DNA of 22,068 nucleotides from the IMG/VR virus record IMGVR_UViG_3300025112_000216, positions 1 through 22,068 of that record; one strand, written 5' to 3'. The notes under the pieces were generated by a model, which was given only the letters and a program-made list of their open reading frames with translations, did not search any database and was not told the DNA's origin. The position numbers and the translations under genes were made by a program. The stretch comes from a virus. Below, piece by piece: positions 1 to 21,449 of this stretch; position 1 is the first letter of the stretch, and each line of letters opens with the position of its first letter.

Positions 1-1359
1 GAATCCGTTGAACTGGATGAGAAAATTCTTTCTCCGATGTATTTCGATTCTGGCATGTCCAATCGAGCCCATGCAGATAGATTTGTTAAATTTATAAAGA
101 GCAAGAAAATAACAATACAATCTTATCGTATTTCTGGTCAATATGAAATCTTTCCTAAAACTCCTCAAGATGTAGACACAATACGCAAAGCCGCAAAAAA
201 ATACGGTTTGATTGCCATAAAAGAATCCGTTGAACTGGATGAAGCAGACAACACTGCCGCTGTTGCAAAGCAAGTCAAGCAAGCAGTAAAGAAATATACA
301 ACAGGTAAACTTGCTGTCCAATCAAAGGGTGGTAAGACTCGTTTTATCATGCTAAGAGCAGATAAGATTGACAACAAACTTCGCAAGATGATTCTTGATA
401 TTGAACACCCAAATGCAAATGTTAAGAACATGGATGACATTCACTATGCTAACATCAGCGATAGAATCATCAGTGCGGGTGCCGATGTATGGATAGATGC
501 ACTTGGACTGAAAGAATCCGTTCAACTGGATGAGGTGTGGATTCTCGCAAGTGATGAAATGAATCCTGTCAAGAAGACTGCACAGAAACTTGCCAAGCAA
601 AATCCCGATAGAACCTACTTTCTTGTTCAGCACGCCAGACACCATGCTGGTGGAATAATCAAGTATCGCTACGAGGTGGTTGATGGGGTTGATATGCATA
701 TGTACAGAGATGCAAAGAGAATCGCACAATATGGCAAGATCAAAGAGTCCGTTGAACTGGATGAAAAACTTTCCGCAAAAATGATGAAAAAGTTGGGGAT
801 AGTAAATCCTTTAGCAGGAAAACACTACCCATATCAAGAAGAAAATACACAAGTAGAAGACAAAGCACAGATAAATGAAGCAGAAGAATGGCTCCTTGCG
901 TTTGAATTTAAGACAGCCTACTCTGGAGAAGGTCGTGACACTAGAAGAGATCTTGAAAAAAGATTTAAAAAATATTGGACCGGATCTGGAAGTACAGGTA
1001 AAGGATGGGATGTAAGTTTTCATGGAACAAAGAACGAACTTCAAAAGATCAAGAAATATGTCGAAAAAACATACGGTAAAGATTTAGATAAGAGACATAC
1101 TATTCTCTCTGTTTTTGAATCGGCTGTTGATGAATATAGGGGTTCAATTGATTCTACTAGTCATAAGAGTGCTGAACAACGAAGAGAAGAATATGCAATG
1201 AAGAAAAAGAAAAAGGAAAGACTTGCAAAAAAATCTGTTGGTTTGGGTGAAGTTGCTCCCGCTGGTTGGGAAGGAACAGTCAAGGCAATGAAGAAGAAAA
1301 AAGATATTGATAATCCTTGGGCATTGACACATTGGATGAAAAATAAAGGACAAATATAA
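1..1359 (+). CDS. modular (polyprotein-like) phage protein, 5' end outside window
   Basis: The frame is open from base 1 (it begins ESVELDEKILSPM), so the ATG at 37 is internal and the true start lies upstream. The motif ESVELDE or ESVQLDE occurs at bases 1-21, 223-243, 514-534 and 745-765. It separates modules of about 67 to 90 residues with mixed alpha/beta character. These modules are not obviously alike, although the two ending at 222 and 744 both close with an Ala/Lys-rich helix just before the linker. A fourth module follows INEAEEW. A Lys-rich stretch (KKKKKERLAKK) and a tail containing GWEGTVKAMKKKKDIDNPWA end the protein; I have the impression that this tail recurs in marine phage proteins. 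The L-D-E endings fit the T4 gp21 prohead protease consensus (L/I-x-E), so I infer a head-packaged polyprotein. No enzyme motif was recognised. Transcription probably ends at the terminator at 1395. Confidence 0.85.
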   Translation, partial: ESVELDEKILSPMYFDSGMSNRAHADRFVKFIKSKKITIQSYRISGQYEIFPKTPQDVDTIRKAAKKYGLIAIKESVELDEADNTAAVAKQVKQAVKKYTTGKLAVQSKGGKTRFIMLRADKIDNKLRKMILDIEHPNANVKNMDDIHYANISDRIISAGADVWIDALGLKESVQLDEVWILASDEMNPVKKTAQKLAKQNPDRTYFLVQHARHHAGGIIKYRYEVVDGVDMHMYRDAKRIAQYGKIKESVELDEKLSAKMMKKLGIVNPLAGKHYPYQEENTQVEDKAQINEAEEWLLAFEFKTAYSGEGRDTRRDLEKRFKKYWTGSGSTGKGWDVSFHGTKNELQKIKKYVEKTYGKDLDKRHTILSVFESAVDEYRGSIDSTSHKSAEQRREEYAMKKKKKERLAKKSVGLGEVAPAGWEGTVKAMKKKKDIDNPWALTHWMKNKGQI

Positions 1360-1466: not shown

Positions 1467-2282
1467 ATGCAAAACCTAATACGGTATCTCTTAGTCCCTT
1501 TGCTATTGATTACGGGGTGTAAAGCCCCGCAGGCGAGCAGTCTACCCCCTCAAAACACAACAGATATAGTTATCGCCAAGATTGAATCACCCCCACCAAA
1601 TTACTTGGATGAGTGGTTTATCGCAGCAACACCAGAAGATGACCCATACCCGTCTGTATGTAGTTTGCATACAGAAAGTGGGTATCTGATAGGAAGTGGA
1701 ATACTAATCCGCCCGGGTGTCGTTCTAACGGCAGGCCATTGCGTCAATGGCAACAATGTGTTTTCTATTACCATTGGAAATGAACAGATAATGGTAAAGA
1801 AAACTGTGCTACACTCCCGATACAGCGATTCGCTCGGGCGGGTGCAAGATGATATAGCGTTGATATTCCTTGAGTGTGAATCTAAATACGAACCAGCCGA
1901 ACTGGGATGTATTGAATGGATCAAACGATATCAGAGTATCACTACTGTAGGGTATTCATTTGAGTATAAGAAGTACAGTAAACCAAAAGTATTTAGGTAC
2001 TTTGGAACTGTTACAGAAGAACCAGACACAATGAAATTTATTCCACGACCGGCTAGTGTTTGGTTTGGTGATTCTGGTGGCGGGGTATTTGCAGAGTATG
2101 AAGGAAAGAGTTATCTTGTGGGAGTTATTAGTAATTTTATGGTGATCAAACCATTTAGTGGTAAACCAGTAGTTTCAGAATGTTCTGCAACCATTGTGTC
2201 GCTATATCTAGAATGGATAGAAAGAGAGGTATTGAAAAATGAGATTGAAGAGACTGAAATATTTGTTAGGGATGGGCGGTAG
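1467..2282 (+). CDS. trypsin-like serine protease with lipoprotein signal peptide
   Basis: The 271-residue protein has a complete chymotrypsin-fold triad: His91 in LTAGHCVNG, Asp129 in DDIALIFL and Ser203 in GDSGGGVF. The N-terminus is a hydrophobic signal ending in LITGC (Cys18), a good lipobox. The protein should be exported and lipid-anchored on the outer side of the inner membrane or on the outer membrane. Two further Cys pairs (65/92 and 139/148) could form disulfides in an exported protein. The gene follows a terminator, and AGGA lies about 11 bases before the ATG. Its last 44 bases overlap a small membrane protein gene in another frame. Known trypsin-like folds in phages are rare, and a lipoprotein form suggests action on the host envelope. 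The substrate is unknown. The protease call is secure; the role is open. Confidence 0.93.
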   Translation: MQNLIRYLLVPLLLITGCKAPQASSLPPQNTTDIVIAKIESPPPNYLDEWFIAATPEDDPYPSVCSLHTESGYLIGSGILIRPGVVLTAGHCVNGNNVFSITIGNEQIMVKKTVLHSRYSDSLGRVQDDIALIFLECESKYEPAELGCIEWIKRYQSITTVGYSFEYKKYSKPKVFRYFGTVTEEPDTMKFIPRPASVWFGDSGGGVFAEYEGKSYLVGVISNFMVIKPFSGKPVVSECSATIVSLYLEWIEREVLKNEIEETEIFVRDGR

Positions 2283-7021: not shown

Positions 7022-10000
7022 CTATTTATCCCTGGTTATAGTCATATATGGGGTATCTTTTATATATCTTTTTATCAATTTCTCTGTGCCAATTTCTCCT
7101 GCACCATGCTCTTCTGCTCTCCATTTATTATTATTTCTACTTCTATTACGAGAAGCAGATGTGATTTGTATATTGGAAGATGAATTATTCAGGGGATTTC
7201 CGTCTTTATGATCTATATCTTTTCCATCACCTACCGATAATCTACCATCTCGTATCAATCTATTCCTCATACCTGTTCTGGCACTTCTTCTTTTTCTTTG
7301 TTCTGGTTGTGCATTGTATTTTTTTAATCTTTTTGCTCTATTTACCGGATCTTCATTTTCGTTGCTTTGTTTTTTATTCCTATTTTGAATATCCCGTAAA
7401 GGTTGTTGTGACGGAATATTTGACGGGGTATTTCCAAATTGTTGAAATGCGATTATATCAGATTTTTTTTGTCCTGTGTTTTGTTGCCCTGGTGTTACAG
7501 GAATCGGAGGTTGATTTTCCTTTGCACCCATATTTGCAATTCTTGAAGCATAATATATGGGGGCTAATGACTTTCCAAGTTTTGCTAATTTAGATAAACC
7601 ACCAAGTATTGCAATCTCTTCTAATGGGGGTGCTTCATTTATTTCTGTAAAATATTCTAATTCATCTCTTAAATCTTCAAACTTATCTGGCGGAATTTCC
7701 ATATCATCATACCCATCAGTCCATCTTAAAACTTCTGGTATAACCAATCCTTCTTCTTTAAGTGCAGGAAGAATCAATTCAAACACATTAAAATAATCTA
7801 TAAGAAGTTCTTCACCTTCGTTAATGTCTCTAATTGCATGTGTATAAAAATTACCATCCCGATTTTCTACTAAAACTAAATTTGGGTTACTCCACGAATG
7901 ATTTGTAAACCTACAGAAATCTGTTCTTTGATATTCTGGCGCATTACTATTTTCACTCAACAGATTTATATAATACAACCCAACACCCTCACCTTCTTTT
8001 ATATTATTAGTAGAAAATGTACCAATACCTTCTATCAAAGATTCTTTGAAATTGTATGCGATGTATTGTTCATCTGTTGTTGCAACATTTTGCTGTTGTG
8101 TATCAACTTGCTTTTTTTTAGTTGTGTGTGATTTGAATGTGGCAAGTTTGTTTTGTGCTGCTTTATTTTTCCCGGGAAGAATATTTTGTTTTTGCCTTTC
8201 CTTTTCTGTAGCACTTTCGTTAACATCTCTCCCTAAAGAATTTTCTATTTCGGATGATTTTGCCTTTTTAGATAATTTGTCATAATTTTTCCATTCATCA
8301 GAAGATAATCCCAAATAATCTTCATTTTCTTCGTCTTCTTTTTCTGGTTTATATTTTAATATAGAAACAAATTTAGATTTACCATCCATATTAATTTCGG
8401 TAGTTTCATCAGATATTTCTTTGGAACCGATTTCCTGCCATTCTAATTCATTGGTGCTAAAGTTTTCAAGTTCTATATTAAGGAAGTTCATAAGTTTCAT
8501 TGGATCTCCTCCAATTTCGTTCAACTTTTTCTTTCCCTCTTCTACAGCATCAGAATTGTTTGATATAGATATTAATTCATCAGGTTGTTCTGTGAGGATA
8601 TTGTCATATTCATGAAATGATAAAAACCCAGCAGCAAGTTCTTGTTGCTTTTGCTTTTGCTTTGCCCATGTTGCTTTTTCCTTACCCGACATTTTACTGC
8701 TACGAAGTGCCATATAATTTGCGTAATCGCCAGTTTTCATTTTCTTACCATCAACTATGATTTCTCTTTGACTCCCTTTCCATGCAAATATAAACTTTGT
8801 GTTGTCACTAACATTTTCAACCAAATTATTATCCATTTCTCTTATATTTGAGCCTGTACCATCTGGATTCATTGTAAAATATAAATTTGCAACTGCATTA
8901 TTACATCCACACTCAGCATTACAACACCCACAAAATTTGATACATCCCGTCATCGCTTCGTGTACCATTCCTTCTTTAAAAGAAGGACTTTCGTTTAGTA
9001 TATCATTAATTGATGCGGTTAGGTCATTTCTTAATTTTTCACTATCTGCAATAATTTTAACAATTTCTGGATCATATTCTGAAGCCTTAGTATTTTTCCA
9101 ATGTTCGGGTTTTGGGGCCTTTCCATATACTTCATTCCAATTAACACCAGCAGAACCCGGACCGTATGTGTCCCACCATTTTGGAGGATTTTTTTCATCG
9201 CACCCTTTCGATGCACCGCATGTATAACTACCACCAGGGGTAAACCAATTAAATGGCCCAACGCCTTTACCAGAATTAAGATACATTTTGGTTTTATCTT
9301 CTAATTTTTTAACGAGTGCTTTGACCTTTTCTTTGGTTTTTGGTTCAAGTTCCATTAAACTTTTACAATGTTTTGTATCTTTTCCGACACAATGAGATTT
9401 CTGTTTTCCCATTACTCCCATCAATATTGCCATTGCTTCACCCGGGGCAGGAGACATCAATTGTCCTGGTCCTGCTTTAATAGAAGTTCCGTGTTCATGT
9501 CTTACACCATTTTTATCAATTTGTACAATTATGATATCACTTTTTGGTGTTGCATTTTTTGCACCAAATTCTTGAAAATGCTCAGAAGTTGTGATTGCTT
9601 CTTCTGTGCCAGATCCCGTGTGTTCTAAGTGCCACTGAGATGTTTTATCAGGATCTACTTTCTCTATAAAAGGAATAATAGCAGTTTTAATTGCTCTTGC
9701 AGAAGCAGATTCCATTCCATGACCATATTTTTCTGCTTCTGAAGAAAGTAATGTCATACTTTTGTGTGCTTTTATCGAATCATTTTCAGACACATTACCA
9801 ACAGAATCATCAAGTCCTTGCATTCTATTAAATTCTAAAACCATTCCTGCTTCAATCATTACAGCAGGAAAATCTACAGGATATTTTGCACCAGAAGTTG
9901 GTGTTTTCTGAAGAAGTTTTCGTACATTTTCTTGTATTTTTGCATCTAATGATTGAAATGCTTCTTGATTTTCTAAATTTTTTAGTTGCTTATCTCGCTC

Positions 10001-11863
10001 AGATTTTAATTGTTTCTTTTCTTCTTTTTCTGCTGCTTTCATTTCTTTGGGGGTCATTTCTCTTGTTTCTCCCCCCTGTCCTGTTAATTCTTCTGGTTGT
10101 GGTGTTTGTTGCTGCTGTTGCGTTTTTTGTGTCTTTTTTTCAGCGGCATCAACTGCTGCTCTTCCGAGAAGTTTTACTGATGTTAATGTTCCTTTAAAAT
10201 CACCATATTTTCCATTTACAGCCCTTTTACCATCGGCAAGTTTTACTTTTCCTTTATCTACTAAAACATCATGACTTGCAGTGGTTTTTGTAACAATTCT
10301 AACTTGACCACTTTTATTTTTAACTATATAAACATCTTTCCAATCCAAATCAGAATCGGTTCTTTTTTCAACTTCTCTTTCTCCTCTTTTATCAGCAGTA
10401 TTTTTTTCTTGAGGGGTTTCAGCACCCGTTCCACGATTTCTTTCCCGTTCTTTAGCAATTCTTATTTGTTCGGATTTTTGCATTCGTGAAAATTCAACAA
10501 GTGACATTACACCACGATTATGTAAATTTGATTCATTTAAAACTTCTGATTTAAAACTAGCATCAAAACTTTCAATTGCTTTTGCAGGATCGTTTGTGGT
10601 CATTTTTGTTCTCACTTTTTTTAATCTTTCTTGTTCTGCTCTTCTTGCTTGGGGAACCAACCGCTTTGCGAGTTTACTAATTACATTTTTCTTCTTTTTG
10701 AGCCTATCTTCTATTTTTTCTCTTTGAGAAAATGATAATTCGTTCCAATTCATTCCTTTTATCATTCTTGCACGAAGTTTAGAAATTGCTGCTTTTTGTG
10801 CTTTCTTTTTAATTTCTGCACCAGACTTTTTTCTCTTCTCTTTCATCTTTCTTTTACGCATTCTTTTCTTTGCTGTTCTTCTGGCACTTCTTGCCATTTT
10901 TCTTCTGGATTGGATTGAAATTTCATTAAGTTCACTTTCGTTTGATTCAACAGATTCAGATGTTGTATCATGAACTCTTATATTTGTGTTTTTTGCATGA
11001 GTAAGAAGTTCATTTTTGTTTGATCCTCTTTTAATATGTACATCATCTAGTGTCAAAAGAGCATATCCGCTTGCAGATTTGACTAATTTAGCAGCCATTG
11101 TTTTTTCATCAATCTTTTCTTTTCTTTTCTTTTTCTTAAATCCTTTTGTTCCCCATACTTCGTTGTCTATTGCAGGAACATCTATACCTTCTCCACCCAT
11201 ATCAAATTTTTTCAATATATTTTTTGACATACAATATTCATTCTCTTCTTTTAAGAATTCGACGAATTCGTCATAATTAAACCAATTTTCTGAAACAAAG
11301 GGTTTTACTCCCATTCCGAGTTGAACTGCTTTAAATAATTGTTGTGTATCGTTTGTTGATACATGTGAAGGAACACCCAATCTAAAGGCATTCAAATTTC
11401 CCTCTTTTGCTGCTACACGCATTTTAGATGCAGACATTCCTTGAATATTTTCTGCATCTGGATCTCTTTCTCCTGCTGATACAACCTCAAATTTTTCAAA
11501 TTTATATATCTTATTTGGTCCAATATATTTGGACATACTTTTTTTGAATTCATTAACTCTGTCTCCACCAACCACCATAACGACATCTGTGTATCCTTCC
11601 TTATCCAATTCCGATAAGGCATCAAATGGGGTTTTAACTTTGTTATTTATTAATACATTGAATCCCTTAAGTGCTTTTTTCATAAATCTTAATTTTTGTT
11701 TAGAACTTAGTGGGTTCCTTTTTCTATCATAACTCATACTGCCATATATTCTATGATCGGCACTTCTTCTTAGTGCTTCTTGTTTCACCTTAGATGCTAA
11801 TAGATAATGCCCCGTAGTTGGGGGATTAAATCTACCGAAAGTAAAAACTATTTGTTTTCTCAT
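7022..11863 (-). CDS. giant multidomain virion polyprotein: nucleotidyltransferase, basic region, unknown domain, SET, HNH
   Basis: 1613 residues. Residues 1-190 are a cytidylyl/adenylyltransferase-like domain with GRFNPPTTGH (10-19) and SASKMR (144-149). Residues 260-297 hold a KRGSN module also found in the gene ending at 21449. ESVESNESELNE (303-314) is a linker like those of the gene at 1-1359. Residues 315-420 are extremely Arg/Lys-rich helix. Residues 505-570 form a small domain, and 575-635 are Gln/Lys/Glu-rich. Residues 640-1095 are one large unknown domain with FKEGMVHEAMTG and a Cys cluster at 974-987. A SET methyltransferase-like domain (1270-1360) has GIGTFS, RFTNHSWSNPN and GEELLIDYF. 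HNH lies at 1520-1585 (DIDHKDGNPLNN). L-N-E or I-N-E steps (311-314, 442-444, 1114-1116, 1408-1410) separate the modules. AAGGAA precedes the ATG. It is probably cut by the prohead protease, an inference. Confidence 0.85.
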   Translation of the reverse strand: MRKQIVFTFGRFNPPTTGHYLLASKVKQEALRRSADHRIYGSMSYDRKRNPLSSKQKLRFMKKALKGFNVLINNKVKTPFDALSELDKEGYTDVVMVVGGDRVNEFKKSMSKYIGPNKIYKFEKFEVVSAGERDPDAENIQGMSASKMRVAAKEGNLNAFRLGVPSHVSTNDTQQLFKAVQLGMGVKPFVSENWFNYDEFVEFLKEENEYCMSKNILKKFDMGGEGIDVPAIDNEVWGTKGFKKKKRKEKIDEKTMAAKLVKSASGYALLTLDDVHIKRGSNKNELLTHAKNTNIRVHDTTSESVESNESELNEISIQSRRKMARSARRTAKKRMRKRKMKEKRKKSGAEIKKKAQKAAISKLRARMIKGMNWNELSFSQREKIEDRLKKKKNVISKLAKRLVPQARRAEQERLKKVRTKMTTNDPAKAIESFDASFKSEVLNESNLHNRGVMSLVEFSRMQKSEQIRIAKERERNRGTGAETPQEKNTADKRGEREVEKRTDSDLDWKDVYIVKNKSGQVRIVTKTTASHDVLVDKGKVKLADGKRAVNGKYGDFKGTLTSVKLLGRAAVDAAEKKTQKTQQQQQTPQPEELTGQGGETREMTPKEMKAAEKEEKKQLKSERDKQLKNLENQEAFQSLDAKIQENVRKLLQKTPTSGAKYPVDFPAVMIEAGMVLEFNRMQGLDDSVGNVSENDSIKAHKSMTLLSSEAEKYGHGMESASARAIKTAIIPFIEKVDPDKTSQWHLEHTGSGTEEAITTSEHFQEFGAKNATPKSDIIIVQIDKNGVRHEHGTSIKAGPGQLMSPAPGEAMAILMGVMGKQKSHCVGKDTKHCKSLMELEPKTKEKVKALVKKLEDKTKMYLNSGKGVGPFNWFTPGGSYTCGASKGCDEKNPPKWWDTYGPGSAGVNWNEVYGKAPKPEHWKNTKASEYDPEIVKIIADSEKLRNDLTASINDILNESPSFKEGMVHEAMTGCIKFCGCCNAECGCNNAVANLYFTMNPDGTGSNIREMDNNLVENVSDNTKFIFAWKGSQREIIVDGKKMKTGDYANYMALRSSKMSGKEKATWAKQKQKQQELAAGFLSFHEYDNILTEQPDELISISNNSDAVEEGKKKLNEIGGDPMKLMNFLNIELENFSTNELEWQEIGSKEISDETTEINMDGKSKFVSILKYKPEKEDEENEDYLGLSSDEWKNYDKLSKKAKSSEIENSLGRDVNESATEKERQKQNILPGKNKAAQNKLATFKSHTTKKKQVDTQQQNVATTDEQYIAYNFKESLIEGIGTFSTNNIKEGEGVGLYYINLLSENSNAPEYQRTDFCRFTNHSWSNPNLVLVENRDGNFYTHAIRDINEGEELLIDYFNVFELILPALKEEGLVIPEVLRWTDGYDDMEIPPDKFEDLRDELEYFTEINEAPPLEEIAILGGLSKLAKLGKSLAPIYYASRIANMGAKENQPPIPVTPGQQNTGQKKSDIIAFQQFGNTPSNIPSQQPLRDIQNRNKKQSNENEDPVNRAKRLKKYNAQPEQRKRRSARTGMRNRLIRDGRLSVGDGKDIDHKDGNPLNNSSSNIQITSASRNRSRNNNKWRAEEHGAGEIGTEKLIKRYIKDTPYMTITRDK

Positions 11864-11895: not shown

Positions 11896-11929
11896 AAAAA
11901 ATAGGAAGATGTAATTTCTTACATCTTCC
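11896..11929 (-). terminator. Rho-independent terminator on the - strand
   Basis: GGAAGATGTAA (11904-11914) and TTACATCTTCC (11919-11929) pair over 11 bp around TTTC. Read on the - strand the stem is followed by TATTTTTTATAC. It ends transcripts coming from the genes at 12024-14411 and separates them from the giant gene. Confidence 0.85.
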
Positions 11930-11930
11930 C

Positions 11931-12523: not shown

Positions 12524-13726
12524 TTACCCCTTTATCCAATCTTTCGGAACACTAAAATTCGCTTTACTAAATTCAAGTCTGTCTACTATTTTTATTGCAC
12601 TGTTTGTAAGTTTATCTACACCAACAAACCCCTCTGGTTTTGTAACTCGAAATCCGTCTTCCGTTTTTATGAATGTTTCCATAGATTCAATACTTTCAAG
12701 TTTTCTTAAAATAATCATTTTTGCTTTTCTCAATTCTTCTCTTAATGCAAATACCCCATCAAGTAATTTTATAGAAAATTTAAATTTATTCATCATTTCT
12801 TCTTTGAATGTTCTTTTTCTTTCTTTACCCTTTTCAGATTTCATAGAATTAATTTCGTTTTCAAATCTTTCATCTAACCATTTAATGAAATTATCAGAGG
12901 ATAAAGATTCTGTCCCTGCACGAACATTAACATTCACAAATATATTCAACAAATCGAACATTTTAGAATCATTTTTTATAACATTTATGAATCCTTTAGA
13001 TGTTTTTCTGTGCTTATTAATTTTGTTAAATGAATCATATATTGTACTAACTTCTGAGAGTGTTAATGAAGCAATACCACTTGTATTTTTAAATGATGCA
13101 TCATCTACCCACACTTGCCTATTGTTCTTTAGTTTGTTTATGTTTGGGTTAAATTTCGAAGACATTTTTGATAGACTTTTTCCGGTATATTCTGTGTGGA
13201 ATATTATCCCAAATTTAGATTGTTTAATTCTTTTTCCCAAGTCTGAATCAACAGGTATAGCATATGTAATAGTATTTGGAGTAAATGTGTAATACTGTTT
13301 ACCTTTGATTCTTTGCGTTTTAACATCACCGTGCGAAAATAACATATCCCCCTGTAATATACCCATAATAGGCAATTTCTTTAAATATTTGAGTGCAGCA
13401 ATAAGTTTACTTCCCACACCAGATGTATGATTTTTTTTAATATCCGAAACTGTATAGTTTACTTTTGGTCGTTTATTAAAAACACTTTTAGTACCGACAA
13501 AGAACTTTCCATTCTCTGGATTTTTACCACAAATAATTGCAGGTGCGCCATCCCACTTTACTGATGCATTTACCTTAGAACTAGAATTACCTTCCAGCAT
13601 TTTCACCAATTCTTCTAAAAAATACACACCCTCTTGAACACGATCATCACCCTCAAAAGCCAAATCTTCCAAATGGATTAGGTGAGTGTTTTTTGCTTCT
13701 ATAAGATATTGCTTGAAGGATTTCAT
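12524..13726 (-). CDS. KWDG nucleotidyltransferase (RNA/DNA ligase-like, DUF6267-like), head-targeted
   Basis: 400 residues. It starts MKSFKQYLIEA, the head-targeting leader of this region with an L-I-E cleavage step. VKWDGAPAII at about 56-65 is motif I of covalent nucleotidyltransferases, with Lys57 the expected adenylylation site; FVGTKSVFNK follows at the usual spacing and ILQGDMLF (123-130) resembles motif III. A region of helices makes up the C-terminal half. The family resembles what I recall as DUF6267 of T4-like cyanophages, annotated as uncharacterised. A packaged ligase could seal nicks in the injected genome or act on host RNA. The ATG comes four bases after the upstream stop with a weak ribosome-binding site. 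Confidence 0.82.
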   Translation of the reverse strand: MKSFKQYLIEAKNTHLIHLEDLAFEGDDRVQEGVYFLEELVKMLEGNSSSKVNASVKWDGAPAIICGKNPENGKFFVGTKSVFNKRPKVNYTVSDIKKNHTSGVGSKLIAALKYLKKLPIMGILQGDMLFSHGDVKTQRIKGKQYYTFTPNTITYAIPVDSDLGKRIKQSKFGIIFHTEYTGKSLSKMSSKFNPNINKLKNNRQVWVDDASFKNTSGIASLTLSEVSTIYDSFNKINKHRKTSKGFINVIKNDSKMFDLLNIFVNVNVRAGTESLSSDNFIKWLDERFENEINSMKSEKGKERKRTFKEEMMNKFKFSIKLLDGVFALREELRKAKMIILRKLESIESMETFIKTEDGFRVTKPEGFVGVDKLTNSAIKIVDRLEFSKANFSVPKDWIKG

Positions 13727-18421: not shown

Positions 18422-18946
18422 TTATGATTGAGTTATCGTCACATTTTCTATATGATACCCCTTTATACCACTATGGTCATGGACGGTATACTCTGGATAT
18501 TTATTACTCAAATTATCTTTCGTTTTTCGTATTAATCGTTTAATCACTCTCGCTTGGTGTGTGGTAGATGTTTTATCTTCTTTATCTGGTATAGAATTAT
18601 TTATACTATATTCTTTCTTTTTGTGGTCAATTCTTCCTTGGACAAAATGCTCTGGATCTCCTGCTTGAGTTATTGCTTTGCTCACCCTTTTCTTTGGATG
18701 CTTTTCTATCCATGTTTCGTGGTTTGCAGAATCGGGATGCATTTCATATCCTGTTTTTCGTTCATGTGCATCTCTTTTATTTTTATATAATTTTAAGTGA
18801 TTGACAGAATCGTGCCCACTGACAGCACCGTTATGATATAATTCTACATGCTTCATATCTCTATGAATCGTGTGATGCCCAACATCAAAATAACTTGTTG
18901 GTTTCTTTTTTTCTTCTGTTGTGATGTATTGGCGAAATGATTTCAT
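18422..18946 (-). CDS. head-targeted His/Lys-rich protein
   Basis: 174 residues from the ATG at 18946, which overlaps the upstream TGA as ATGA; the five codons before it are out-of-frame sequence of the upstream gene. The leader MKSFRQYITTEE fits the local type. The body is rich in His and Lys (YFDVGHHTIHRDMKHVELYH, NHETWIEKHPKKR), followed by a helix (ARVIKRLIRKTKDNLSNKYP). No known family. The overall layout (His-rich beta region, helix, final strand) weakly resembles that of the protein at 19305-19829. Confidence 0.75.
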   Translation of the reverse strand: MKSFRQYITTEEKKKPTSYFDVGHHTIHRDMKHVELYHNGAVSGHDSVNHLKLYKNKRDAHERKTGYEMHPDSANHETWIEKHPKKRVSKAITQAGDPEHFVQGRIDHKKKEYSINNSIPDKEDKTSTTHQARVIKRLIRKTKDNLSNKYPEYTVHDHSGIKGYHIENVTITQS

Positions 18947-19299
18947 TTTATTGTTGGCCATTTATCGAAAGATTTGTCCCAAGGTCCATGATGTCCATAC
19001 CCACCAAATTGATTTCGTGTTGCCTGTGTCGGGGTATACTTTACCGTATTTTTCACCTTGAATGTTTTATAGAACTTCTTTATGCTCCATCTACCACTGT
19101 CACCGATATTTGTGTCATATACTTTTCCCTTGTCTTCTATCCATGCATGAGGAAATGTTTTTCCTAAAGTGTTTGTCACTATGCCATGCACGACCTTGTG
19201 TGTTCCGCCCTTATGATGTTCTATGTTCCAATCATTCGCCCACTTGAAACAATCACCGCATACCATTGCTTCCGTAATGTATTGCTTGAAAGTTATCAT
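18943..19299 (-). CDS. head-targeted Cys-His-Asp (transglutaminase/papain-like) protein, copy 1
   Basis: 118 residues from ATG 19299 (an upstream frame start would be TTG). After the leader MITFKQYITEA comes MVCGDCFKWANDW (Cys14, Cys17), then FPHAWIEDKGKVYDTN (His51, Asp62). A Cys at the start of a helix, then HAW(I/V)E and a strand ending in D is the order of transglutaminase/papain-like enzymes and related cysteine peptidases. Cleavage after ITEA would leave the catalytic segment almost at the new N-terminus. Bases 18951-19280 match 20298-20627 with only one, silent, difference. The assignment to a catalytic fold is moderate. Confidence 0.8.
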   Translation of the reverse strand: MITFKQYITEAMVCGDCFKWANDWNIEHHKGGTHKVVHGIVTNTLGKTFPHAWIEDKGKVYDTNIGDSGRWSIKKFYKTFKVKNTVKYTPTQATRNQFGGYGHHGPWDKSFDKWPTIK

Positions 19300-19304
19300 A
19301 AATA

Positions 19305-19829
19305 TCAATCCTGACGAGATAAAGTAAATGTTGTCTTGTGTCCATGATCCGTTTCAGAATGTTTCATTCCAAGTTCCTTTGCAACTCTATTTGTCATCTT
19401 TCGATATACATTTTCTCTTGCTCTTGGATTTCCGTGATGATGGCTTGCTTTAAGTGCATCAAATTCAATTGTATGATTACCGTCCGGGTTCTTGGATGTT
19501 ATGTCCTTTGAGTGTCGGTGGACGAATGCTGCAACATGATTGAGTATTCTTTTGGCTCCTTTCGCTCCAACCTTTCCAGTTCTTGCAGTTCCTTCATCGT
19601 CTACACTAAAATCAACCTTAGATGTGTTTTTCTCTGTATCATGCCATGCAGACATGTTTACTTGGTGTTTACCAATTTTTCGATCATGAAAATGATGATA
19701 GTAACTTTTTCCCACATCCACCACATGAACCGGATGTGGTTCGTGCTGGACCTTAATCTTCTTCGACATTCTTTGAATTTTCTCCGCAGAAGATACCTTT
19801 TCTAAAATGTATTGTTTAAATGATTTCAT
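19305..19829 (-). CDS. head-targeted protein with IEF-A-K...R-A...G motif
   Basis: 174 residues. The leader MKSFKQYILEK has L-E-K after Ile. The middle is beta-rich with many His; then come helices (RILNHVAAFVHRH) and the motif HTIEFDALKASHHHGNPRAR, with VYRKMTNRVAKELGMK after it. That last motif (I-E-F-x-A-x-K, basic loop, R...Y...R.A...G-x-K) also ends the protein at 20643-21206. I take it for a shared phage domain with a core reminiscent of acetyltransferase-type folds, which is weak. GGAG lies seven bases before the ATG, which overlaps the upstream TGA (ATGA). Confidence 0.75.
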   Translation of the reverse strand: MKSFKQYILEKVSSAEKIQRMSKKIKVQHEPHPVHVVDVGKSYYHHFHDRKIGKHQVNMSAWHDTEKNTSKVDFSVDDEGTARTGKVGAKGAKRILNHVAAFVHRHSKDITSKNPDGNHTIEFDALKASHHHGNPRARENVYRKMTNRVAKELGMKHSETDHGHKTTFTLSRQD

Positions 19830-20293
19830 ATATCACTCCAGTATACTCTGTCCTTATCTTTGGCATTGATTCTCTTGGCGAGCAATTTCAATGTTCTGTT
19901 TTTGAGTGCAAAGTTTGTACCTACCGTGCGTGTATTCATAATAATAACTTTCAAGTTACCAACTGCTTCCATATCTGGGTCCAAATCATCTAAATCATTT
20001 ACAGTCATAAAGTTTATCATTCCTTTTGCATAGTCACCAACATACTTCTCACCAGTCATCGCATAGATAACAGGTTCATGAATTGCATCATATGAATCCC
20101 ACATCCACATTTTACCTTTGGAATCTACAACGAATCGGAGTTCTTTGATTTTAGACTTGTTTAGTGCTGTCGTGATTTCTTTTTCCGAAGGATTTTCAAA
20201 ACCACGAAAGTCACTCCACTCTGCACCTTTGTATGGAAAGGCTGAGGATAGTTTCGCTGGCTTCTCTGTGATGTATTGCAAGAATGATTTCAT
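19826..20293 (-). CDS. head-targeted protein with WDSYDAIH segment
   Basis: 155 residues from ATG 20293, which overlaps the upstream TGA (ATGA). The leader is MKSFLQYITEK. After a linker the core reads LRFVVDSKGKMWMWDSYDAIH, and EPVIYAMTGEKYVG follows; the rest is an acidic turn (NDLDDLDPDMEAVG) and a basic helical end (NRTLKLLAKRINAK). A strand with D-x-K-G, then W-D-x-x-x-A-x-H, is a pattern I have the impression of seeing in other phage proteins, function unknown. The DNA encoding the leader is nearly the same as that of the next gene upstream. Confidence 0.75.
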   Translation of the reverse strand: MKSFLQYITEKPAKLSSAFPYKGAEWSDFRGFENPSEKEITTALNKSKIKELRFVVDSKGKMWMWDSYDAIHEPVIYAMTGEKYVGDYAKGMINFMTVNDLDDLDPDMEAVGNLKVIIMNTRTVGTNFALKNRTLKLLAKRINAKDKDRVYWSDI

Positions 20294-20646
20294 TTTTTTG
20301 TTGGCCATTTATCGAAAGATTTGTCCCAAGGTCCATGATGTCCATACCCACCAAATTGATTTCGTGTTGCCTGTGTCGGGGTATACTTTACCGTATTTTT
20401 CACTTTGAATGTTTTATAGAACTTCTTTATGCTCCATCTACCACTGTCACCGATATTTGTGTCATATACTTTTCCCTTGTCTTCTATCCATGCATGAGGA
20501 AATGTTTTTCCTAAAGTGTTTGTCACTATGCCATGCACGACCTTGTGTGTTCCGCCCTTATGATGTTCTATGTTCCAATCATTCGCCCACTTGAAACAAT
20601 CACCGCATACCATTGCTTCCGTAATGTGTTGCAAGAATGATTTCAT
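20290..20646 (-). CDS. head-targeted Cys-His-Asp (transglutaminase/papain-like) protein, copy 2
   Basis: 118 residues from ATG 20646, which overlaps the upstream TGA (ATGA). It carries the leader MKSFLQHITEA in place of the MITFKQYITEA of copy 1, followed by an almost identical body (VCGDCFKWANDW; FPHAWIEDKGKVYDTN; last residues WPTKK instead of WPTIK). The DNA of the body differs by one silent base over about 330, but the leader differs, so the leader and body have been recombined. Retaining two copies suggests a dosage effect, a recent duplication, or gene conversion. The probable enzyme fold is as for copy 1. Confidence 0.8.
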   Translation of the reverse strand: MKSFLQHITEAMVCGDCFKWANDWNIEHHKGGTHKVVHGIVTNTLGKTFPHAWIEDKGKVYDTNIGDSGRWSIKKFYKTFKVKNTVKYTPTQATRNQFGGYGHHGPWDKSFDKWPTKK

Positions 20647-21206
20647 TTTTTTGTCAACTGCCATCTAACTCTTGACGCTTGTTTGTTTTCGTCTCTGTCT
20701 GATTTGTATCCCATTTTGCCTGCAAATCTCTTCACGATTGCACCATATGCTCCTGCACGACCAGTCGGTTCTTTTGTTCCCGTTTTACGATTATCTTGTC
20801 CTTTATCAGCACTAAAGATGAGTGTTATTGGTTCGTGCTTCTTTATGATAGACTTGATTATGTCTAACACTGTTGCAAGGATTCTCATTGCATCACCTTC
20901 GCCCGTCATATCATGGGTGGGATATCCATATTGAGTATCTCTCTTCATGAATTCTATAGCAATGGTGTGTCCTGTTTCCTTTATCATTACTCCCGCCATC
21001 TTCCAGTCTGATTCTACCCAAAAATGATTTGCAGTCACTTCAATAGTTCCACCATCAGATGTTTTGAATATATACTCTTCTAGCATACCCTGATTTTTTG
21101 GTGTTATTGAACCCTTTGCAACATTACCACCACGCCACTTGTATGGCTTGTCAAATACTTCTGTGATGTGTTGCAAGAATGATTTCATTTCTTTGTCAAC
21201 TGCCAT
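20643..21206 (-). CDS. head-targeted protein with SADKG...GRAGAY motif (187 aa)
   Basis: The leader MKSFLQHITEV starts at residue 7. The ATG at 21206 is preceded by GGGAAGAG at good spacing, while the second ATG (21188) would begin exactly at the leader; both remain possible. The body is beta-rich (YKWRGGNVAKGSITPKNQGM, EVTANHFWVESDWKMAG, IAIEFMKRD), with a helix (AMRILATVLDIIKSIIKK) and the motif TLIFSADKGQ, then RAGAYGAIVKRFAGKMGYKS. The last motif resembles the end of the protein at 19305-19829 and is common to phage proteins of this type. Function is unknown. Confidence 0.78.
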   Translation of the reverse strand: MAVDKEMKSFLQHITEVFDKPYKWRGGNVAKGSITPKNQGMLEEYIFKTSDGGTIEVTANHFWVESDWKMAGVMIKETGHTIAIEFMKRDTQYGYPTHDMTGEGDAMRILATVLDIIKSIIKKHEPITLIFSADKGQDNRKTGTKEPTGRAGAYGAIVKRFAGKMGYKSDRDENKQASRVRWQLTKK

Positions 21207-21449
21207 CTAACTCTTCCCTAGTGCTATTTTTATTTTATGATGTTTTGCAAATTTTTCTAATTCTTTTCTATTCGAACCTCTCTTTAGGAATACATCATCT
21301 CCACTTTTATCAACACCCAGTAATTGCCATCCATGTGCAACCCTTTCAATTCTTCCAGTACGAACCAAATGTCCTTCAATCCTTGCAAACTCAACAACGA
21401 AGGATGTTTTATGTTTGACGAATTGTTTGAAACTTTTGAAGTTCTTCAT
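21207..21449 (-). CDS. 80-aa protein with a KRGSN module
   Basis: A basic start MKNFKSFKQFVKHKTSF contains the FKSFKQF element of the leaders. GHLVRTGRIERVAHGWQLLG and DVFLKRGSNRKELEKFAKHHKIKIAL follow. The last 30 residues align with residues 268-297 of the giant protein (ALLTLDDVHIKRGSNKNELL, then AKNTNIRV), so a mobile module is shared. No catalytic motif. No clear ribosome-binding site is visible before the ATG at 21449. It may bind nucleic acid. Confidence 0.72.
   Translation of the reverse strand: MKNFKSFKQFVKHKTSFVVEFARIEGHLVRTGRIERVAHGWQLLGVDKSGDDVFLKRGSNRKELEKFAKHHKIKIALGKS

Follow-up and report, generated by a model that had tools for sequence, protein, structure and literature searches.

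A 1613-residue multi-enzyme protein of a T4-like marine phage is a candidate head-cargo protein with gp21-type sites at its module joints

Few viruses of the ocean are more common than T4-like phages, and the contents of their heads besides DNA are mostly unknown. In T4, internal proteins carry an N-terminal capsid-targeting sequence of 10–19 residues: targeting depends on residues 4 and 7, and processing is directed by residues 8 and 10. The protease gp21 cleaves after L/I-X-E, and fusions of the targeting sequence to proteins up to the size of β-galactosidase are packaged and delivered (PMC9026906). Polyvalent proteins, which are injected multi-enzyme chains, were expressly likened to polyproteins in the part of the describing article used here, which attributes their processing to zincin or assemblin-like peptidases within the chain (Iyer et al., 2017; PMC5512222). 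The portion of that text searched contained no occurrence of "SET domain," "cyanophage," "marine," or "cytidylyltransferase," no mention of marine T4-like members, and no NMNAT-like nucleotidyltransferase (NTase), HinP1I/MspI-like nuclease, or basic module. In cyanophage S-SCSM1, ORF91 and ORFs 89, 90, 92, 93, 95, and 97 are annotated as virion proteins, and their products were detected in virions by mass spectrometry (PMC9602691); virions of S-CREM2 contain a cytidylyltransferase (ORF154; PMC10665884). Both groups cautioned that NMNAT-like proteins might have been carried over from the lysate. We found no relevant report of SET domains in phages in the open-access literature.

We analyzed an entire IMG/VR virus record (IMGVR_UViG_3300025112_000216; 22,068 bp, hereafter the window). 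It is part of the genome of a Kyanoviridae-like, T4-like marine myovirus whose relatives include Pelagibacter phage HTVC008M and cyanophages. We propose, with a probability of roughly 55%, that its protein P0001 is a head-cargo protein of the T4 lineage, a string of effector modules that would be delivered into the host and possibly cut by gp21. Like polyvalent proteins, P0001 joins disparate enzymes (NTase, nuclease, SET, and HNH) in one chain and belongs to a family with shuffled architectures whose modules also occur alone; by homology, it may also be delivered with DNA, as is predicted for them. Unlike them, it contains no embedded peptidase and would depend on gp21 in trans, and it has none of their usual hub domains, which are common but not obligatory there. 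The relatives and neighbors of P0001 share with T4 IPI/II/III and Alt a 10-residue targeting sequence cut after L/I/V-x-E, and P0001 likewise has a basic component and is expected to be delivered with DNA; whereas the T4 proteins each consist of one effector behind an N-terminal sequence, P0001-type proteins carry up to seven modules. Judged against the open-access literature, what is new here is a T4-lineage polyvalent form with capsid-targeting sequences, gp21-type joints, a SET domain, and a HinP1I/MspI-like nuclease.

Architecture of P0001 and its large domain

P0001 is encoded by one minus-strand ORF of 1613 codons (182 kDa), and the plus strand of the same interval is rich in stop codons. 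A terminator hairpin and the late-promoter-like TATACATATAA, 23 nt from the start codon, mark the head of a transcription unit at P0001 (Table 1), and the start codon is credible because these elements lie just upstream of it. An identical TATACATATAA precedes the NTase start in L007, L008, and L009 (L numbers label loci gathered in this analysis).

Table 1. Features of the window; arrows mark candidate cuts.
Feature	Residues	Position	Strand	Basis or remark
P0001, multi-enzyme protein	1–1613	7022–11863	−	ORF call
Terminator hairpin		11903–11930	−	Upstream of P0001
Late-promoter-like TATACATATAA		11886–11896	−	Directly after terminator hairpin
NTase	5–186	11306–11851	−	HIGH-superfamily, NMNAT/cytidylyltransferase-like; TTGH 16–19, SASKMR 144–149
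Small module	263–302	10958–11077	−	BLASTP E 1e-5 to stand-alone copy at 21207–21449
Basic RRK module	317–414	10622–10915	−	Own gene in HTVC008M and others
Predicted PD-(D/E)XK nuclease domain, HinP1I/MspI-like	655–1056	8696–9901	−	Invariant residues, model
SET domain	1270–1405	7649–8056	−	NHSWSNPN 1321–1328, GEELLIDY 1350–1357
HNH module	1518–1576	7136–7312	−	Also in L007, L008, L010, L013 with different neighbors
C-terminal EEHGAGEIGT module	1584–1609	7037–7114	−	Common to 23 other ORFs
Candidate VSE↓N ([IV]xE right after NTase)	Glu192	11288–11296	−	Conserved, 4/4 relatives
Candidate LNE↓I (LxE before basic module)	Glu314	10922–10930	−	Conserved in aligned relatives
Candidate LNE↓S (LxE after basic module)	Glu444	10532–10540	−	VLSE, INE, IIE in relatives, by eye
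Candidate INE↓A ([IL]xE after SET)	Glu1410	7634–7642	−	Conserved, 3/3 SET-bearing relatives
FVEFLKE, weak internal capsid-targeting-like candidate	200–206	11246–11266	−	FMEFLEE in L007
FLSFHEYDNILTE↓Q, targeting-like candidate with LTE site	1080–1092 (core LSFHEYDNILTE, 1081–1092)	8588–8626	−	Not kept in all relatives
DUF6267 neighbor, in-register MKSFKQYLIE↓A		12524–13726	−	Motif scan
Five more neighbors, in-register capsid-targeting sequences		18943–21206	−	Motif scan

The ORF call, Pfam searches, and composition bore out an earlier note, made from the DNA letters, that had described this ORF as uniting an NTase, a basic region, a large domain, a SET-like domain, and an HNH motif. The NTase matched Pfam CTP_transf_like at residues 8–149 (E 3e-6) and contains both HIGH-superfamily motifs ([HT]xGH and S-x-S-x-x-R). 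The SET domain was matched by Pfam at residues 1290–1357 (E ~5e-7; 4.5e-7) and contains the NHxxxPN and GEELxxDY motifs, and the HNH module matched HNH_3 at residues 1546–1573 with an E value of 4e-4, slightly below the Pfam cut-off. Residues 315–444, which cover the DNA-binding-like basic module, are 35% Lys and Arg with a pI of 11.6. The note had missed the 40-residue small module, whose homolog in the window is a separate gene with a targeting-like start. The Pfam search of P0001 returned no peptidase domain, zincin-like or other, and no ArdC-N, ART, or ParB domain; PADLOC matched P0001 to no defense system.

The large domain, which the note had left as unknown, could be identified. Its sequence had no match in Pfam, PHROG, or the PDB, save for phrog_22045 (unknown function) with the L008 copy, and tblastn of the region against the phages collection gave none at E 0.01. 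In an alignment of eight sequences (P0001, four relatives, and three phage proteins that stand alone), the invariant residues were Glu671, Pro773-Lys774, Asp776, and Ser794-x-Lys796, of which E671, D776, and S794-x-K796 provide the acidic...x-K catalytic motif of PD-(D/E)XK enzymes. The spacing from the Asp to the SxK is 18, which we take to be similar to that of MspI. Profiles of the fused and stand-alone sets matched each other with a probability of 98.9 (E 2e-17). An AlphaFold2 model of the domain (pTM 0.68, mean pLDDT 68) aligned over ~200 residues with HinP1I (Z 10.2 and 9.1) and MspI (Z 9.5) in the structures 2fkc, 1ynm, and 1sa3, and the next chains fell to Z 3.6; Foldseek alone gave a weak match (E 0.03), and sequence identity to the two enzymes was 9–15%. 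The best reading is that residues 655–1056 form a predicted PD-(D/E)XK nuclease of the sort found among type II restriction enzymes, sharing the fold and D...SxK motif of HinP1I and MspI. The phage proteins differ from those enzymes in that the stand-alone relatives bear a targeting-like N-terminus. With this assignment, the earlier statement that no functional pathway links the activities is too strong: two nucleases and the basic module fit one DNA-directed role.

A mosaic family

A peptide-pattern search of viral contigs with whole P0001 found no direct relatives; profile searches did. The NTase profile retrieved more than 570 loci from IMG/VR, of which the best 80 were taken, and module orders were scored with 22 module profiles built in this analysis. 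Among 99 NTase ORFs of 208–1873 aa, which are related and non-independent sequences, we counted 30 module orders, so the carrier idea of the earlier note was not contradicted by one fixed set and order. L007 reads NTase-RRK-PDX-SET-HNH, L008 has this order with one extra module, and L009 has it without SET and HNH; L010 reads NTase-DUF192-RRK-...-HNH and L013 reads NTase-HNH-RRK, which places HNH ahead of the basic module in L013 and behind it in L007. Separate homologs of the modules were found in related phages: in HTVC008M, one locus contains the NTase, the basic module, the nuclease, and DUF6267 as four individual genes, and outside NTase ORFs the basic module occurred in 14 ORFs and the nuclease in 31.

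Two further arrangements were observed. In L011, L014, L017, and L064, the NTase is followed by an ATP-grasp ligase resembling RimK and by the Pfam domain PF05618, a putative ATP-dependent zinc protease, possibly a further cargo type that might bring its own protease. In L055, L059, L067, L075, L076, L078, and L081, a Pol-beta-like nucleotidyltransferase is fused before the NTase (Pol-beta-like-NTase-KOW in L055, L075, and L081), and the joint in several of them contains an xEA(K/R) step exactly where the targeting-sequence cut of other NTases sits.

L/I-x-E steps at module joints

The earlier note had placed L-N-E and I-N-E steps in low-complexity linkers. P0001 contains six (Glu314, 444, 958, 1116, 1349, and 1410) compared with 1.22 in composition shuffles (P 0.0005), and the reversed E-N-L/I occurs once; the location given in the note held in part, as Glu958 and Glu1349 lie inside the folded nuclease and SET domains. 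The broader L/I-x-E showed no excess over the whole of P0001 (22 vs. 17.6, P 0.15). In the alignment of a four-member clade, [LIVM]xE was kept at the borders E192, E314, and E1410 and at five more positions inside domains; the reversed motif was conserved only inside domains. Two steps were rejected as cut sites, Glu1116 (KLNE↓IGG), which relatives do not keep, and Glu958, which sits within the nuclease.

For an unbiased test across the family, we took as joints the points where local alignments of proteins with unlike neighbors break off. At the N-terminal joints of the NTase polyproteins, [LI]xE was 2.6-fold more frequent than in flanks, compared with 1.4-fold for both the reversed motif and Glu alone; over all proteins, these values were 1.85-, 1.25-, and 1.24-fold. 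Comparison of linkers with modules gave 2.7-fold for L/I-[NDSTQ]-E and 1.2-fold for its reverse. The linker-wide L/I-x-E frequency (1.9-fold over modules) was dropped as evidence, as Glu alone reached 1.8-fold there; because the linkers are acidic, part of this signal is composition. The per-module upstream counts include some LRE inside the KOW module and were set aside in favor of the joint and border results; the [LIV]xE that immediately precedes the basic module in nearly all copies could belong to its fold.

HTVC008M has gp21, which itself shows VQLIAE↓A at its N-terminus; the gp21 gene was not within the window, which is a genome fragment. The retention of gp21-type L/I-x-E sites at module borders suggests cutting as a pattern, and we see about an even chance that P0001 is cut at its joints. 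A prohead protease of the gp21 type would cleave the acidic joints (Glu192, 314, 444, 1410, and perhaps 1092) in trans. Cuts at 192, 314, 444, 1092, and 1410 would give pieces computed at 21.7, 14.0, 15.3, 71.9, 36.7, and 22.8 kDa, that is, about six pieces of 14–72 kDa that would be active at once in the cell.

P0001 might instead be packaged and injected whole, with its domains tethered and L/I-x-E a mere feature of acidic, flexible linkers. The virion RNA polymerase of N4 is packaged unprocessed, according to the portion of the polyvalent protein article used (PMC5512222), and the Glu-rich linkers, in which the reversed motif also exceeds the shuffles, fit such a chain, as does the want of a peptidase domain in P0001. 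Against it, L/I-x-E is conserved specifically at borders amid diverged flanks, it is enriched at N-terminal joints above the reversed and single-residue controls, and gp21 cuts exposed L/I-x-E in the T4 prohead. We consider a whole, uncut chain rather unlikely and less probable than processed cargo.

Targeting sequences, virion proteins, and a proposed role

Many NTase orthologs open in the T4 register, with MKSFKQFVTE↓A, MKTFGKFLTE↓A, or MNNLSFKQYLVE↓A ahead of the NTase. Of the 1521 unique genes in the loci as a whole, 82 began with an in-register targeting motif, compared with 0.7 expected from the internal rate, and six of these genes were in the window (the DUF6267 gene and five small genes). 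P0001 starts MRKQIVFTFGRF and, like its counterparts in L007, L008, and L009, has no N-terminal targeting sequence; the T4-type N-terminus of 10–19 residues with aromatic residues at 4 and 7 and an L/I-x-E cut was found in many orthologs and neighbors and not in P0001.

Within the chain, FVEFLKE and LSFHEYDNILTE are weak candidates for internal targeting sequences, the former against a motif background of 6% per 45 residues. The idea that a targeting sequence follows the NTase when the N-terminal one is missing found no general support (Fisher P 0.19 with the relaxed and 0.04 with the strict motif, each time against the direction proposed); the N-terminal classifier overlooked sequences parted from the NTase by an insert. 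In four NTase ORFs of 208–214 aa (L028, L052, L058, and L080), a strict in-register match, such as LSFGAFLNE↓Q, lay within the last 20–24 residues and none at the N-terminus, so a C-terminal targeting sequence is possible there.

The S-SCSM1 locus (L112) lies between gp41 and gp61/nrdA and is syntenic with that of P0001. ORF91 (409 aa) reads MKSFLQFLKE↓A-NTase-KOW, with 43% identity to P0001 residues 5–187; it resembles P0001 in its homologous NTase, its locus, and its presence in virions, and differs in having only NTase and KOW, with no nuclease, SET, or HNH. S-CREM2 ORF154 has the same annotation and is also in virions, a likeness by annotation alone. In S-SCSM1 (MK867354.2, 86357–93306), seven of nine consecutive ORFs (89–97) are virion proteins, and ORF92 contains EEVELDE and ESTEMDE joints.

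These data bear on whether P0001 is instead an ordinary intracellular enzyme of NAD metabolism and DNA degradation, never packaged, whose fusion reflects co-regulation. Its N-terminus without a targeting sequence, the possible carry-over in virion proteomes, and the view of most phage NMNATs as metabolic genes (PMC9503650) fit this explanation. We nevertheless judge it improbable, as orthologous NTases and the DUF6267 neighbor carry exact T4-register targeting sequences, the syntenic S-SCSM1 locus gives seven virion proteins, and P0001 has its own late-promoter-like element. Packaging of P0001 in the head is, from these sequence comparisons, likely. The carrier polyprotein of the earlier note thus gained support from module shuffling and from the targeting sequences and virion detection of homologs; for its cutting, the border motifs lend support as a pattern.

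In the head-cargo reading, P0001 would be made late, enter the prohead core, be packaged, and reach the host along with the DNA. We infer its injection and the target of each enzyme. NAD or nucleotides may be the substrates of the NTase, which might, for instance, restore NAD+ against an NAD-depleting defense, a role proposed for phage NAD+-synthesis enzymes (PMC9503650); the nucleases and the basic module may act on host or rival DNA; and SET, as a protein-lysine methyltransferase, may methylate host proteins. More tentatively, and with somewhat less than even odds, P0001 would be a true head polyprotein of five or more enzymes, with gp21-type cuts in trans yielding equal numbers of NTase, nuclease, SET, and HNH and a targeting signal inside the chain. 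If so, it would be a T4-lineage counterpart of RNA-virus polyproteins and contain the first virion-delivered SET methyltransferase. The locus offers a sequence rule for head cargo, namely a 10-residue targeting sequence followed by modules with L/I-x-E joints, and suggests new types of cargo enzyme, among them a SET methyltransferase and a restriction-like nuclease; the exact cut sites predicted can be checked by virion mass spectrometry of cultured phages.

Other genes of the window were also of note. The 440-aa protein encoded at 37–1359 (+) contains three ESV(E/Q)LDE steps (63, 160, and 237) and QINEA between small modules, with four [LI][ND]E compared with 0.4 expected; by its sequence, it is another bead-on-string protein whose joints are of the gp21 type. 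At 1467–2282 (+), this phage encodes a trypsin-like protease that bears a lipoprotein-like signal (MQNLIRYLLVPLLLITGC). The row of small genes at 18422–21449 (−), mostly with T4-type targeting N-termini, differing bodies, and almost no Pfam or PHROG match, looks like an internal-protein array. It includes a 300-nt direct repeat (18920–19219 and 20267–20566; 98% identical) in two near-identical targeting-sequence genes, whose proteins show the pattern GDC...HAWIE...YDTN, possibly a Cys-His-Asp triad.
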